Source of the DNA: an uncultured Methylophilaceae bacterium
GTDB taxonomy: Bacteria > Pseudomonadota > Gammaproteobacteria > Burkholderiales > Methylophilaceae
Direction of reading: 5' to 3'
DNA length: 60,093 bases
Assembly (NCBI GenBank): GCA_903953055.1
Contig: CAJBIA010000069.1
Span: 1 to 60,093, forward strand
The notes beneath the pieces were generated by a model, which did no database searches, had not been told where the DNA came from, and saw nothing but the letters and a program-made list of their open reading frames with translations. A program made the translations under genes and the position numbers. Position 1 is the stretch's first letter. Each line of letters opens with the position of its first letter. This document shows positions 12,938-17,390 of this stretch, piece after piece.

Positions 12938-13684
12938 TTAGCCACGAAGACGGTCAGCATCTAAGCGACGCACCGTTAAAGTTAAAAATGTCACAATAAA
13001 CAATAAAAAGTATGCAATATCAGCTGTGTCAATCAAACCTCGGGCGAATGGCTGAAAGTGATGCATTAATGATAAGTAATTGATCACGCTAGCTTCATCA
13101 CCAGTTAAAAAACGATCAACGATCAATAATCCGAATAAAGCAATAAAAGTAATAATTGCAGCGACGACTGGCTGAGCAGTTAAACTTGAGAAATATAGAC
13201 CCATTGCTGAAAAACTAGCCACAAGAAGCCACAATCCAAGCACGTTAGAAAACAAGTAGCCAATGTCAATGTCCGCCCATACGTTTAATGTACAAAGCAT
13301 CACAGCAATCATGGCAACCAAAATGCTTAGAAAAGAAACCAGGCCAATAAATTTACCAAGAACAATTTCAGACAAAGAAATTGGTGCACTAAACAAGAAA
13401 GTCAAAGTATTGCTTCTTCGCTCTTCACTAATTAATCGCATCGAGAGTAAAGGTACAGAAAACAACATCACGAAAGATGCTAAGCCAAATACACTTTGCC
13501 CAATAAACATTGTTACACCCGTCCGCTCCGCTGGACGAATGGCTCCAGACATTACCTCGAAGTACTCATTGACCCCATTTAAAAAATAAGTACCGAATGC
13601 AAACTGCAACAAGGCCAAAATCACCCAGCCCATAGGCGATGCGAATACGCTATTAAGCTCTTTTCTTGCGACTTTTAAAATCAT
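12938..13684 (-). CDS. GldF-like ABC transporter permease
   Basis: A 248-residue inner-membrane ABC-2-type permease with about six hydrophobic segments. It starts MILKVARKELNSVFASPMGW, the usual opening of this family, in which a cytoplasmic amphipathic helix precedes TM1. It lies between the ATPase gene (35 bases upstream) and the GldG-like gene (13 bases downstream), completing a three-part exporter. The transported substrate cannot be deduced from the sequence. Confidence 0.88.
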   Translation of the reverse strand: MILKVARKELNSVFASPMGWVILALLQFAFGTYFLNGVNEYFEVMSGAIRPAERTGVTMFIGQSVFGLASFVMLFSVPLLSMRLISEERRSNTLTFLFSAPISLSEIVLGKFIGLVSFLSILVAMIAVMLCTLNVWADIDIGYLFSNVLGLWLLVASFSAMGLYFSSLTAQPVVAAIITFIALFGLLIVDRFLTGDEASVINYLSLMHHFQPFARGLIDTADIAYFLLFIVTFLTLTVRRLDADRLRG

Positions 13685-13719
13685 GACTTTTACTTTCTAA
13701 AAATTCTACTTAAGGGTGC

Positions 13720-14652
13720 TTACGCTGCAACGTCTTGATAAGTCAATTGAACGAACACATCTTCAAGGCTAGTTTGGTCTGGATTGATTTGATGCAAACC
13801 CCATCCTTTCGAAACTGCAACTTGCGCCAACATCTCAGCTGGCATTTGACCGGCGGTATAACGCACCCTTAATAGTCCATTTGGCAAGGCTTCAACTGAC
13901 TCAACACCTGCCAATCCTAGCAACTCATCATGTGATGGCGGATTATTCAAACCTATTAATAGTTTATTGCCATGGCGTTGTTTCTTAAGAACATCAATCG
14001 AACCATTAAATACCAACTTACCTTTGTCAATAATTTGTACGTGATCACAAATCATTTCCACTTCAGGCAAAATATGCGTGGAAAGAATCACGCTATGTTC
14101 TCCCCCAAGCTCTTTAATTAAAGCTCGAATATCACGAATTTGAATCGGATCCAGACCAACGGTTGGCTCATCTAGAATGACCACCATTGGATTATGAATA
14201 ATCGCTTGGGCGATTCCAACCCGCTGTTGATAGCCTTTAGACAAGTTTTCAATCAAACGCTTACTCATTTCGGTCAAGCCACAGCGTTCTTTCGCCCGCT
14301 GGACTGCAGCTCTGATGTGTTTAGCGCTAACCCCATGTAAACGCGCAGCAATTGCCAAAAATTCGTCGACTGTAAATTCACGATAAAGCGGGGGGGTTTC
14401 TGGCAAATACCCAATCAGTGCTTTAGCTTCTTTTGGATTTTCTATCATATCCACACCACAAATTTTAACGCTTCCATTACTAGGTGCTAAGTTGCCTGTA
14501 AGCATTTTCATAGTGGTTGATTTTCCTGCACCATTGGGCCCAAGAAAACCAAGCACTTCACCTTTGCTCAGGGTGAAACTAACATCACTGACCGCCTCAC
14601 GGCCGCCATAGAGACGCGTTAAATTACTCGCTTCAACTGTTAAAATAGTCAT
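13720..14652 (-). CDS. GldA-like ABC transporter ATP-binding protein
   Basis: A 310-residue ABC ATPase. Walker A is GPNGAGKST at 38-46, the signature is LSKGYQQRVGIAQA, and Walker B is VVILDEPTVGLD followed by the H-loop (STHILPEVE). The C-terminal ~90 residues are the extension seen in ABC-2 export ATPases. It is the first gene of the minus-strand operon with the permease, GldG-like, DUF4340 and mutM genes. Upstream lies a terminator-like hairpin (14721-14753) and a minus-strand promoter (14841-14869), so expression may be attenuated. Confidence 0.9.
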   Translation of the reverse strand: MTILTVEASNLTRLYGGREAVSDVSFTLSKGEVLGFLGPNGAGKSTTMKMLTGNLAPSNGSVKICGVDMIENPKEAKALIGYLPETPPLYREFTVDEFLAIAARLHGVSAKHIRAAVQRAKERCGLTEMSKRLIENLSKGYQQRVGIAQAIIHNPMVVILDEPTVGLDPIQIRDIRALIKELGGEHSVILSTHILPEVEMICDHVQIIDKGKLVFNGSIDVLKKQRHGNKLLIGLNNPPSHDELLGLAGVESVEALPNGLLRVRYTAGQMPAEMLAQVAVSKGWGLHQINPDQTSLEDVFVQLTYQDVAA

Positions 14653-14720
14653 AAAAAATTAAGGCTCCACATTGCTTGGCAAGGCCAAATCAAAAGCTAA
14701 ACTCGAAGGCATGTTAAATT

Positions 14721-14753
14721 AAAAAAACGCCCGACACTTGTCAAGCGCCAGGC
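14721..14753 (-). terminator. Intrinsic terminator between minus-strand promoter and ATPase gene
   Basis: The minus-strand RNA folds GCCTGGCGCTTG against CAAGTGTCGGGC (with several G-U pairs) and is followed by GTTTTTTT. No annotated minus-strand gene lies upstream, so it ends either a small RNA or an attenuated leader. Confidence 0.6.
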
Positions 14754-14804
14754 AATCAATGAATGATATTTTAATAACAATTTTAATCTTTGAAACATGT
14801 CCTA

Positions 14805-14832
14805 TTGGAAAGTTTCAATTAAAAAGCTATAG
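14805..14832 (+). promoter_or_regulatory. Candidate promoter of the TPR-lolB-ispE operon
   Basis: TTGGAA (14805-14810), a 16-base spacer and TATAGT (14827-14832) give a plausible sigma-70 promoter about 92 bases before the TPR start. It lies inside the divergent minus-strand transcript proposed at 14721-14834, so the two promoters may interfere. Confidence 0.45.
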
Positions 14833-14924
14833 TCAGCTCTCATTATGGATGAACTTGCCTAAGGTGTCACGGACTAAGGAGTATGTAGTTCACTCAAAAT
14901 CAGCCATGAAAACAACTTTACACA

Positions 14925-16679
14925 ATGCAAAAAAAATCGAAAAACTTGTTACCCATTAAAAAAAATCTATTAGTTGCCGCAATTGCATTTGGCTTTAGCT
15001 GCTTAACAAGCGCGCCTAAGGCGTTTGCCGAAGAAGCTTCCAACCCGGAAATTAAATTAGAATCACAAGGTCAGTTTAATGCTGAATTTGTGTTTCGATA
15101 TTTAACAGCCGAAATTGCAGGACAAAGAGGTGAACTTGGCCTCTCAACAAAACTATTTTTTGAATTGGCCAAATCAACCCGAGACGTTAGATTGGCAGAA
15201 AGAGCAGCCAAAGTAGCAATTTATAGTAAAAATCCCCAAGCAGCCTTAGAAACAACGAGGCTTTGGGTTGAGTTAGATGCGAACTCAACGGATGCAAAAC
15301 AAGCTGCCACGCAGATTTATTTGATGAATGGTGATTTAATTGCTGCAAAACCATTAATCCAACAACTGCTTGAAAAAGAAGAAACTCGTGCAAATGGTTT
15401 TTTATATTTAAATAACCTGTTATCACATCAATCGAACAAGAACGCTGTCTTACAATTAGTGCAAGAATTAGCAGCCCCTTATTCACACTTGGCGGAAGCT
15501 CACTTCACCATTGGCCAAGCTGCATTTCAAGCAGACAATCAAGAGCTTGCGCTTAGTGAAATTAAGCGCGCAAATCAATTACATCCTCATTGGGAAATGG
15601 GAGCAATTCAACAAGCAGATATTTTGTTTACCATTTCTCCAAACCAAGCAATTGATTTCTACCGAAGCTTTTTGACTGACAATCCAAACGCAAATGATGC
15701 TCGATTAAACTTAAGTCGCATGTTGATAAAACAATTGCGTTTTAATGAAACAAAGCCTGAGCTTGTGAAATTATCTAAACTTTCTAATAGCAACCCAGAA
15801 ATTTTAGTGGTTGTTGGCTTAATGTCGGTTCAAATTAATGAATTTGGCGATGCAGAAAAGTATTTTAAACAAGCATTAAGTTCTAATATTAAACATAAGG
15901 ATCCTATTTACATATATCTAGGTCAAATTGCTGAAAAAAATAAAAATGATACAGAGGCCATTAATTGGTATAGCCAAGTCCAACAATCTGAACCAAACGC
16001 ACTCCCCCAGCAAACGGACCACTATTTAGATGCCAAACTTAGCATCGCTAATGTGATATCACGCAATCAAGGATCTGATGCTGCCATCAAAATGCTTGAT
16101 GAGTTAGAAAACTTGAATAACATAGAATTAGCTCAAGTGATTTCAGCACAAGCGAATTTATTGGCACAAAGCAAACGCTTTCAAGAGTCCTACGAGCTTT
16201 TAAGCAAAGCGGTTGCGAACATGCCAGATTCATCGGAATTAATTTACGACTTAGCGATGTCAGCTGAGCGTGTAAATCAATTTACGGTGTTAGAAACACA
16301 ATTACGAACGCTTATCAAAATTAAACCTTCCTTTGCTCAAGCATACAACGCTCTAGGATATTCATTCGCAGACCGAAACATTAAGCTGGAAGAAGCAAAC
16401 AAGCTCATTAGTAAAGCATTAGAACTAAGCCCAGGCGACCATTACATTTTGGATAGTATGGGATGGGTGCAATATAAATTAGGCAATCTAGAAAAAGCTT
16501 TTGAATACTTGAATAAAGCATATAACCTTCAAAATGATAGTGAAATAGCGGCTCATTTAGGCGAGGTGCTCTGGAAACAAGGCAAACAAAATGAAGCATC
16601 CAAGTTATGGGAAGATGCGTTAAAAACCAGCCCGGAAAATGAAGTGCTGGTCAAAACAATCAAAAAATTCAAATACTAA
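14925..16679 (+). CDS. Exported tetratricopeptide repeat protein upstream of lolB
   Basis: A 584-residue protein with a signal peptide (residues ~1-35, cleavage near AFAEEAS) followed by many TPR-type helical repeats from about residue 60 to the end (e.g. AYNALGYSFADRN, YILDSMGWVQYKLGN). It should be periplasmic or outer-membrane associated and act as a protein-binding scaffold. A TPR gene directly before lolB is a conserved betaproteobacterial arrangement, and only 21 bases separate it from the chosen lolB start. An ATG at 14906 opens a 17-codon frame that overlaps this start out of frame; the main start was kept because of the signal peptide. Confidence 0.85.
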   Translation: MQKKSKNLLPIKKNLLVAAIAFGFSCLTSAPKAFAEEASNPEIKLESQGQFNAEFVFRYLTAEIAGQRGELGLSTKLFFELAKSTRDVRLAERAAKVAIYSKNPQAALETTRLWVELDANSTDAKQAATQIYLMNGDLIAAKPLIQQLLEKEETRANGFLYLNNLLSHQSNKNAVLQLVQELAAPYSHLAEAHFTIGQAAFQADNQELALSEIKRANQLHPHWEMGAIQQADILFTISPNQAIDFYRSFLTDNPNANDARLNLSRMLIKQLRFNETKPELVKLSKLSNSNPEILVVVGLMSVQINEFGDAEKYFKQALSSNIKHKDPIYIYLGQIAEKNKNDTEAINWYSQVQQSEPNALPQQTDHYLDAKLSIANVISRNQGSDAAIKMLDELENLNNIELAQVISAQANLLAQSKRFQESYELLSKAVANMPDSSELIYDLAMSAERVNQFTVLETQLRTLIKIKPSFAQAYNALGYSFADRNIKLEEANKLISKALELSPGDHYILDSMGWVQYKLGNLEKAFEYLNKAYNLQNDSEIAAHLGEVLWKQGKQNEASKLWEDALKTSPENEVLVKTIKKFKY

Positions 16680-16700
16680 GCATCGAGGATGCAATCCTTA

Positions 16701-17390
16701 ATGAAAATAAATAAGAAATGTTGCTTGGGCATTTATTTGTTAATTATTGGGCTGCTAGCAACTGGCTGTTCTACCGTCAGCACAACACCTTCTGGCGAGT
16801 CTCCTCACCAAGCGATAATTGAATCTCAGACCATCCCCGCTGAAGCACAACAGCATCAAGCAGAAATTGCCAGGATAACTAATTTTAAGATTAAGGGCCG
16901 AATGGGAGTCCAAATTGAAAACCATGGTGTTTCAGGCAACATTCATTGGAAGCACTCTAATGATAACGACATCATTGATTTAATCTCCCCATTCGGTAAT
17001 AAAATCGCCGACATCGTAAAAAATGATACTGGGGTGAGTTTAACTACAAAAGATGGAAAAACTTTAAAAGCACCGGATGTAGAAAGCTTAACGGAGCTTA
17101 CTCTCGGATGGAGATTGCCGCTTGCCAAACTATCAGACTGGATAATAGGACGCCCCGGAAAAGGAGTTGTAACCTCTTATACTTTTGACGAAAAAGGCAA
17201 CCTAAGTAAATTCAGCGAAGATGGCTGGGAAATTAGCTACATGCAATATCAAAATGAAATTCAACCAATTTTGCCAAGCAAGATTAATCTTAGCAATCCA
17301 AAAATGAACGTCAGAATTGTTATTGAAAATTGGGATACATCACTAGATCCATCAACGGCACAAGAAAATAACGTCTCAAAGAAGCCATAA
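16701..17390 (+). CDS. lolB: Outer-membrane lipoprotein receptor LolB
   Basis: A 229-residue lipoprotein that accepts lipoproteins from LolA and inserts them into the outer membrane. A lipobox LLATGC places the lipidated Cys at residue 23, followed by the LolB fold with the NFKIKGRMGVQ and ISPFGNKIADI stretches. An ATG at 16689 is also in frame but its GAGG abuts the codon with no spacing, so the ATG at 16701 is preferred. It lies between the TPR gene and ispE in one operon (9 bases to ispE), as in many beta- and gammaproteobacteria. Confidence 0.9.
   Translation: MKINKKCCLGIYLLIIGLLATGCSTVSTTPSGESPHQAIIESQTIPAEAQQHQAEIARITNFKIKGRMGVQIENHGVSGNIHWKHSNDNDIIDLISPFGNKIADIVKNDTGVSLTTKDGKTLKAPDVESLTELTLGWRLPLAKLSDWIIGRPGKGVVTSYTFDEKGNLSKFSEDGWEISYMQYQNEIQPILPSKINLSNPKMNVRIVIENWDTSLDPSTAQENNVSKKP

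Follow-up and report, generated by a model that had tools for sequence, protein, structure and literature searches.

What does the DNA between a minus-strand gld-type operon and a plus-strand TPR-lolB operon do in an uncultured Methylophilaceae bacterium: is it the gene of a small RNA, an attenuating leader, or a site that acts as DNA? The window analysed here, meaning the whole stretch of 60,093 nucleotides, belongs to a host genome of 1.67 Mb in 159 contigs. Open reading frames and Pfam matches place the flagged stretch in the intergenic region between the two operons, and the gld-type operon runs on the minus strand from a GldA-like ATPase through an ABC-2 permease and ABC_transp_aux to DUF4340. 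The genes that matter for the region are the following.

13720-14652, minus strand: GldA-like ABC ATPase, with which the gld-type operon begins (open reading frame; Pfam ABC_tran)
14925-16679, plus strand: TPR protein, with which the TPR-lolB operon begins (open reading frame; Pfam TPR families)
16689-17390, plus strand: lolB (Pfam LolB, E 1.8e-43)

An earlier note on this DNA had proposed that a strong minus-strand promoter makes an RNA of ~114 nt, which ends at a hairpin with a T-run and is either a small RNA or an attenuator of the gld-type operon. The elements that it named are present in the sequence. The promoter reads GTGACA (14870-14865), a 17-base spacer and CATAAT (14847-14842), with 10 of 12 consensus matches, and ranked first among the 8 promoter-like sites that a consensus scan gave for 13500-16000. 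The hairpin (14754-14728) is followed by T7 (14727-14721) and folds at -16.7 kcal/mol (z -4.82), and the second, inner hairpin lies upstream in 14772-14836 (-12.2 kcal/mol, z -2.60); the whole 116-nt minus-strand RNA folds at -30 kcal/mol, with z -4.14 against shuffles. The promoter-like sequence TTGGAA-17-TATAGT on the plus strand (14805-14833) bears out the overlap with a divergent TPR promoter. Both the minus-strand promoter and the terminator-like hairpin are present and conserved, but consensus matches alone do not beat shuffles, as the scan gave 8 promoter-like sites against 6.2 (sd 2.4) and 4 terminator-like sites against 2.6 (sd 1.8), no excess over chance in either case. Hence the promoter and the hairpin stand above chance because they are conserved, and not because of their consensus match. 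The statement that no coding frame lies between them is acceptable in view of 1-base insertions in the genus alignment, although a mechanically called 73-aa plus-strand ORF spans the stretch. The observation was confirmed in part, and its interpretation as a small RNA or attenuator was partly supported. Two features had been overlooked: the promoter boxes sit inside a longer near-invariant element that is also readable as a plus-strand sigma-E-like promoter, and the 5' arm of the hairpin contains TTGACA, 17 bases from a conserved TAATTT.

We compared the region in 187 genomes from 24 genera of Methylophilaceae, a family of methanol-consuming bacteria (the family set), and in 399 genomes of the order, 13 of the family and 386 outside it. 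In the genus of the window, 9 of 10 genomes gave a match and were aligned, the host genome counted (G001 gave none), and a 126-base query matched 105 of the 187 family genomes, 104 of them gap-free over the core and the 105th, G104, not. The genus alignment is near-invariant from TTAGTC via CATAAT to CCAATAGG, drifts in its middle, and is near-invariant again at the hairpin plus T7. The 36 bp from TTAGTC to CATAAT are called element A here.

14842-14877, not assigned to one strand: element A, 36 bp, near-invariant, on the minus strand TTAGTC-n-GTGACA-N7-CAAGTTC-N3-CATAAT (pattern search; column counts on 104 genomes)

With at most 3 mismatches, the pattern was found in 129 of the 187 family genomes, once in each and in 16 of the 24 genera, and 110 genomes in the 129-genome listing carry it without mismatch; the reversed pattern, as a control, gave 0 matches in the 187 genomes. 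Outside the family, a pattern search of 386 genomes from the order gave no copy; in the order set as a whole, the only genomes that had it were 7 of the 13 that belong to the family. Carriers include Methylotenera, Methylophilus, Methylobacillus, Methylovorus, Ca. Methylopumilus universalis and uncultured Methylophilaceae. Many small or incomplete assemblies are among the 58 family genomes that lack the pattern, so that its absence from them counts for less than its presence in the others. Promoters tend to drift. In element A, 25 positions are nearly fixed over 16 genera, and the adjoining TPR protein goes down to 45-48% identity (carriers L177, L180 and L221). By column counts in the 104 aligned genomes, the four boxes are near-invariant (CAAGTTC and CATAAT intact in 104 each, GTGACA in 103, TTAGTC in 100), and the N7 and N3 between them drift.

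A shorter form of the pattern, searched over GTDB species genomes, found 113 stretches, from which 80 named loci were examined. At 69 of these 80 loci gldA and TPR are divergent within 600 bp, another 9 have at least one of the two genes, and the remaining 2 (L179 and L240) have neither and are probably chance matches. Moreover, 13 genomes without element A (g2, g5, g11, g16 and g21; both proteins read) keep the divergent gldA/TPR pair and RpoE; thus neither the gene pair nor RpoE implies element A, and the element is not essential to the arrangement. No description of element A was found among the matches listed in a partial literature collection.

The minus-strand sigma-70-type promoter leaves TTAGTC(C) and CAAGTTC unexplained, and on the plus strand these two boxes read GAACTT-N14-GGACTAA. 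By sequence, 14842-14877 therefore contains overlapping promoter elements of opposite strands.

14842-14870, minus strand: sigma-70-type promoter GTGACA-17-CATAAT facing gldA, predicted start near 14836 (10/12 consensus; hexamers intact in 127/129 genomes)
14851-14877, plus strand: sigma-E-like promoter GAACTT-N14-GGACTAA facing TPR-lolB (pattern match; RpoE in the genome; consensus in excerpts of PMC1804206 and PMC2893595)

According to excerpts of the published work, the enterobacterial sigma-E promoter has the -35 GGAACTTTT and the -10 GTCAAA (PMC1804206), and the Neisseria sigma-E -10 is CGTCTAA (PMC2893595). The sigma-E -35 given in these excerpts, GGAACTT (PMC1804206, PMC2893595), occurs on the plus strand of element A in 31 of the 104 genomes, with TGAACTT in the rest, and GAACTT(G) is intact in all 104; in the 129-genome listing, four g18 genomes (G116, G125, G128 and G146) read GAACTC or GAACTA. 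The plus-strand -10 is GGACTAA or TGACTAA in most genomes, and where published sigma-E motifs have T it has A and never T in 129 genomes. Compared with the RpoE promoters of Enterobacteria and Neisseria, as far as these excerpts describe them, element A is alike in its -35 and, as in Neisseria, in the CTAA end of its -10, but the -10 as a whole is GGACTAA and not GTCAAA or CGTCTAA, and its use by RpoE is putative.

RpoE is encoded in the host genome (TIGR02939 above cut-off, G000:C99), and a match exists in all 24 genera. Upstream of rpoE (L042 and L286-L305), GAACTT-N15-[TG]GTC, with AGTGTA or AGTTTA inside its spacer, was found in 13 of the 21 genomes read, the host genome included, and 8 of the 21 upstream regions lack this motif. 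It is probably an autoregulated sigma-E promoter of the family, and the spacing in element A is 1 bp shorter. A search of 12 genomes for GAACTT-N13-15-GGWCTRA gave 15 matches, 9 of which are element A; because the 6 elsewhere fall below the 14 of the reversed-pattern control, this search by itself shows no sigma-E regulon.

Sigma-E-like sites were also seen at other places in the genus. At L047 and L057 (G004 and G007), GAACTT-N15-GGTCTGA stands ~77 nt before a gene whose translation, read by eye, resembles an M16-type peptidase; this gene is a possible sigma-E target, with the pattern matches overall not above control. The sigma-E-type, promoter-like pair GGAACTTT / CGGTCTGA, of GAACTT-N15-GGTCTGA spacing, is followed by matches to the Rfam family anti-hemB (RF02837) 64 nt (G005, L048) and 49 nt (G004, L058) downstream, which score 56.4 and 54.5 bits with a cut-off of 49.5; the two sites are at L048:1501-1670 and L058:1501-1655, both on the plus strand. 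By eye, the L048 site is flanked by frames resembling groEL and a Rep/UvrD-type helicase. The anti-hemB match is a candidate sigma-E-dependent small RNA of the genus.

We put at about even the chances that the region is a DNA-level control hub, with two interleaved promoters on opposite strands whose polymerases would be mutually exclusive, rather than an RNA gene. Element A would then be used by a sigma-70-type and by a sigma-E polymerase, with transcription of either strand.

Element A could instead be bound by a single protein dedicated to it, through which both operons are controlled, and its likeness to promoters would then be partly accidental. Such a protein would be consistent with near-invariance over 25 positions, stricter than that of the promoter blocks B and C described below or of the family rpoE promoters, and with non-consensus bases (the G of GTGACA, the C of CATAAT and the A of GGACTAA) that are never consensus in 129 genomes, so that TTGACA and TATAAT never appear, again a stricter pattern than in blocks B and C. 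However, none of the 129 genomes has a second site at 3 mismatches or fewer, and hence there is no sign of a regulon; by eye, element A contains no repeat or dyad; and the edges of its boxes coincide with two minus-strand hexamers at 17 bp and with the -35 and -10 of the sigma-E-like promoter on the opposite strand. We regard this explanation as unlikely. Sites of the XerCD dif, CRP and CsrA types presumably do not fit the region.

The proposal of a ~114-nt small RNA or attenuating leader concerns the DNA between element A and gldA, which contains the following features.

14721-14836, minus strand: candidate short RNA or leader of the earlier note, 116 nt (fold z -4.14; covariation not significant in 9 genomes)
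14805-14833, plus strand: block B, TTGGAA-17-TATAGT, a promoter of sigma-70 type directed towards the TPR operon (consensus scan; 78/104 and 83/104 genomes)
14721-14754, minus strand: terminator-like hairpin (14754-14728) with T7 (14727-14721), overlapping block C (consensus scan; fold z -4.82; stem counts)
14716-14744, minus strand: block C, probable gldA promoter, TTGACA (14744-14739), 17-base spacer and TAATTT (14721-14716) (TTGACA in 33/34 rows)

Within the genus, the minus promoter and the hairpin plus T7 occur together in all 9 members where the region was found, the fold is better than that of shuffles, and the MFE, centroid and consensus folds of the 116-nt RNA and the genus alignment all form the terminator. 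The inner 5' helix is 96.3% paired in the 9 genomes and has one doubly changed pair, but the outer 5' helix is 69.4% paired (74.6% of cells overall). Covariation, which had been suggested as a check, was 0.105 against 0.089 in shuffled alignments, a value reached by 33 of 500, and is not significant in these 9 close sequences, where power is low; doubly changed pairs numbered 3 against 2.3 shuffled, reached by 189 of 500. Rfam has no family at the gathering threshold in the region, and eight weak matches up to E = 10, the best being tsr26 with 26.9 bits against a cut-off of 141, were taken as chance. No report of Methylophilaceae small RNAs was found among the matches listed in the partial literature collection.

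Across genera the minus hexamers are kept in 127 of 129 genomes, but promoter and hairpin are not linked. By motif search, block C was found in 32 of the 104 element A genomes, 28 of these 32 with at most one stem mismatch, and it was found in none of the g15, g18, g19 and g7 genomes read. Moreover, block C is present where the minus promoter is not intact, in G106 (promoter eroded), G177 (element A absent) and G058 (element absent, stem decayed). One RNA would need promoter and terminator together, and because they are found separately across genera they are not a unit. A conserved unit that acts as small RNA or attenuator was therefore rejected as the main explanation, on account of the unlinked promoter and hairpin and of covariation that, at low power, was not significant.

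Promoter-like blocks lie at both ends of the supposed RNA. Its conserved 5' part in the genus, CTGACTATAGCTTTTT...AACTTTCCAATAG, matches block B. TATAGT is the top-scoring -10 in 78 of the 104 aligned genomes, and 83 of them have the motif ACTATA[AGT]C on the minus strand, its start lying between 8 and 106 nt from element A. Hence the position of block B in the RNA is not fixed, and the 5' conservation has a cause other than an RNA. An inverted repeat, TTGAAAC-N15-GTTTCAA at 14788-14820, surrounds the -35 of block B. By eye, a similar GAAAC/GTTTC repeat is found in g1 and also in g19 (13 of 14 rows) and g7 (2 of 5 rows) and is not clear elsewhere, and the 5' hairpin was rejected as a family-wide RNA feature.

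At the 3' end, the genus consensus of the hairpin, CGCTTGACA-nn-TGTCAGGCG-T7-AATTTAGCA, reads as a promoter TTGACA-N17-TAATTT that ends, in the window, 64 nt ahead of the gldA start codon. The hexamer 17 bp from TTGACA is TAATTT or TAACTT in 26 of 34 rows. Of these 34 rows, 25 have a perfectly paired 8-bp stem, 4 have a single mismatch in it and 5 have at least two (L038, L111 (g14), L060, L061 (g22) and L160 (g11)). All five stem-decayed rows retain TTGACA, the T-run and TAAnTT or TAACGT; L060 and L061 can form an alternative stem with one mismatch, and L038, judged by eye, a short stem. Thus the hairpin is usually kept, yet it overlaps a probable promoter. A G+C-rich stem is directly followed by a T-run, as in an intrinsic terminator, with at most one stem mismatch in 29 of the 34 rows, and the hairpin may well terminate transcription; block C is probably, from its position and persistence, the gldA promoter. 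Both signals occupy 39 bp of the minus strand (14716-14754) in many genera, with the -35 TTGACA in the 5' arm of the hairpin and the T-run ending at the -10.

Small RNA genes of the RybB and MicA type have a hairpin with a T-run downstream of their promoter. The region is like these trans-acting small RNA genes in having such a hairpin and, ahead of it, a promoter, which PMC1804206 describes for them, but no RNA body is conserved here and promoter and hairpin evolve independently. Because 9 close sequences give the covariation test little power, a minus-strand transcript limited to the genus is possible; that it serves there as the proposed small RNA or attenuating leader of the gld operon we consider improbable.

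Another explanation is that the sigma-E-like promoter on the plus strand, facing TPR-lolB, is all that counts and that the minus hexamers are a by-product. G055 and G106, in which the minus hexamers are eroded and TTAGTC and CAAGTTC are intact, keep GAACTT-N14-GGACTAA, so one set of boxes can be lost without the other, and RpoE is above cut-off in 169 of the 187 family genomes. However, counted from the listing, 127 of the 129 genomes have the two minus hexamers unaltered and 112 have TTAGTC plus CAAGTTC unaltered, and in 17 genomes besides G055 and G106 TTAGTC or CAAGTTC has changed with both minus hexamers kept. Moreover, the sigma-E consensus in the published excerpts (PMC1804206, PMC2893595) does not contain ATTATG or TGTCAC, and the family rpoE promoters read do not have these hexamers at the corresponding places. 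We see little chance that this explanation holds. A conserved plus-strand leader peptide in element A, ATG nnn GAA CTT Gnn nnn nnT GTC ACn GAC TAA, has its ATG and TAA in frame at a fixed distance in 100 of 104 genomes, but is ruled out, with hardly any probability left to it, by internal stops in 29 of 104, the host genome included, though a stop could arise at no more than two of the codons; the third positions of GAA, CTT and GTC also hardly vary.

The reading that we prefer is the one with two interleaved promoters of opposite strands. In this mechanism the core of the region, element A (14842-14877), would hold a minus-strand sigma-70-type promoter interleaved with a plus-strand sigma-E-like promoter into TPR-lolB, and one polymerase on the 36 bp would exclude the other. 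Because of this exclusion, envelope stress, in which sigma-E is active, would turn TPR-lolB up and the minus promoter off. Block B would supply the basal expression of TPR-lolB, and minus-strand transcription, which passes through block B, would interfere with this promoter. In the genus of the window, minus transcripts would end at the hairpin that overlaps the proximal gldA promoter TTGACA-17-TAATTT. We infer the sigma factor used at each site, and with it competition, interference and termination, from sequence, conservation, box positions and the presence of RpoE. Genomes differ in where blocks B and C lie or in whether they have them, and these differences do not follow element A. A more specific form of the proposal is tentative: a single-copy 36-bp switch, spread through Methylophilaceae, where housekeeping and stress sigma factors would compete head-on for one piece of DNA, envelope stress at once turning on the targeting of outer-membrane lipoproteins (TPR-lolB) and turning off the antisense or gld-directed transcript, and possibly with a protein that reads the whole element. 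Such a protein would account for the near-invariance.

Known systems resemble this arrangement in part. In the portion of the source consulted, the bidirectional promoters described by Warman, Grainger and colleagues are pseudo-symmetrical, were assayed in vitro with sigma-70 holoenzyme, and in E. coli show competition when one direction is substantially activated and not at basal activity (PMC12825309). Compared with these promoters as so described (PMC12825309), element A is interleaved and not symmetric, apparently involves two sigma factors, and hardly varies over a large part of a family. By eye, its four boxes are interleaved and not mirror images, and no -10 is shared or mirrored; hence we class element A as working like bidirectional promoters and not as a member of them. 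In Streptomyces coelicolor, a sigma-E motif that overlaps a housekeeping (HrdB) motif was proposed to block transcription (PMC10771440, in the excerpt consulted), and the likeness to element A lies in this overlap of a sigma-E motif with a housekeeping promoter motif. That sigma-E is a different one, from a distant phylum, and the excerpt (PMC10771440) describes no antisense pair feeding divergent operons.

Stacked promoters can mimic the calls of a small RNA with promoter and terminator, and the region offers an example of how such a call may arise. The proposed reading would be testable in cultured carriers, namely Methylophilus, Methylotenera, Methylovorus and Methylobacillus. If the proposed reading is true, Methylophilaceae would have a natural two-sigma switch made from one short overlapping sequence, and lolB and the gld-type ABC operon would be joined by a regulatory link.
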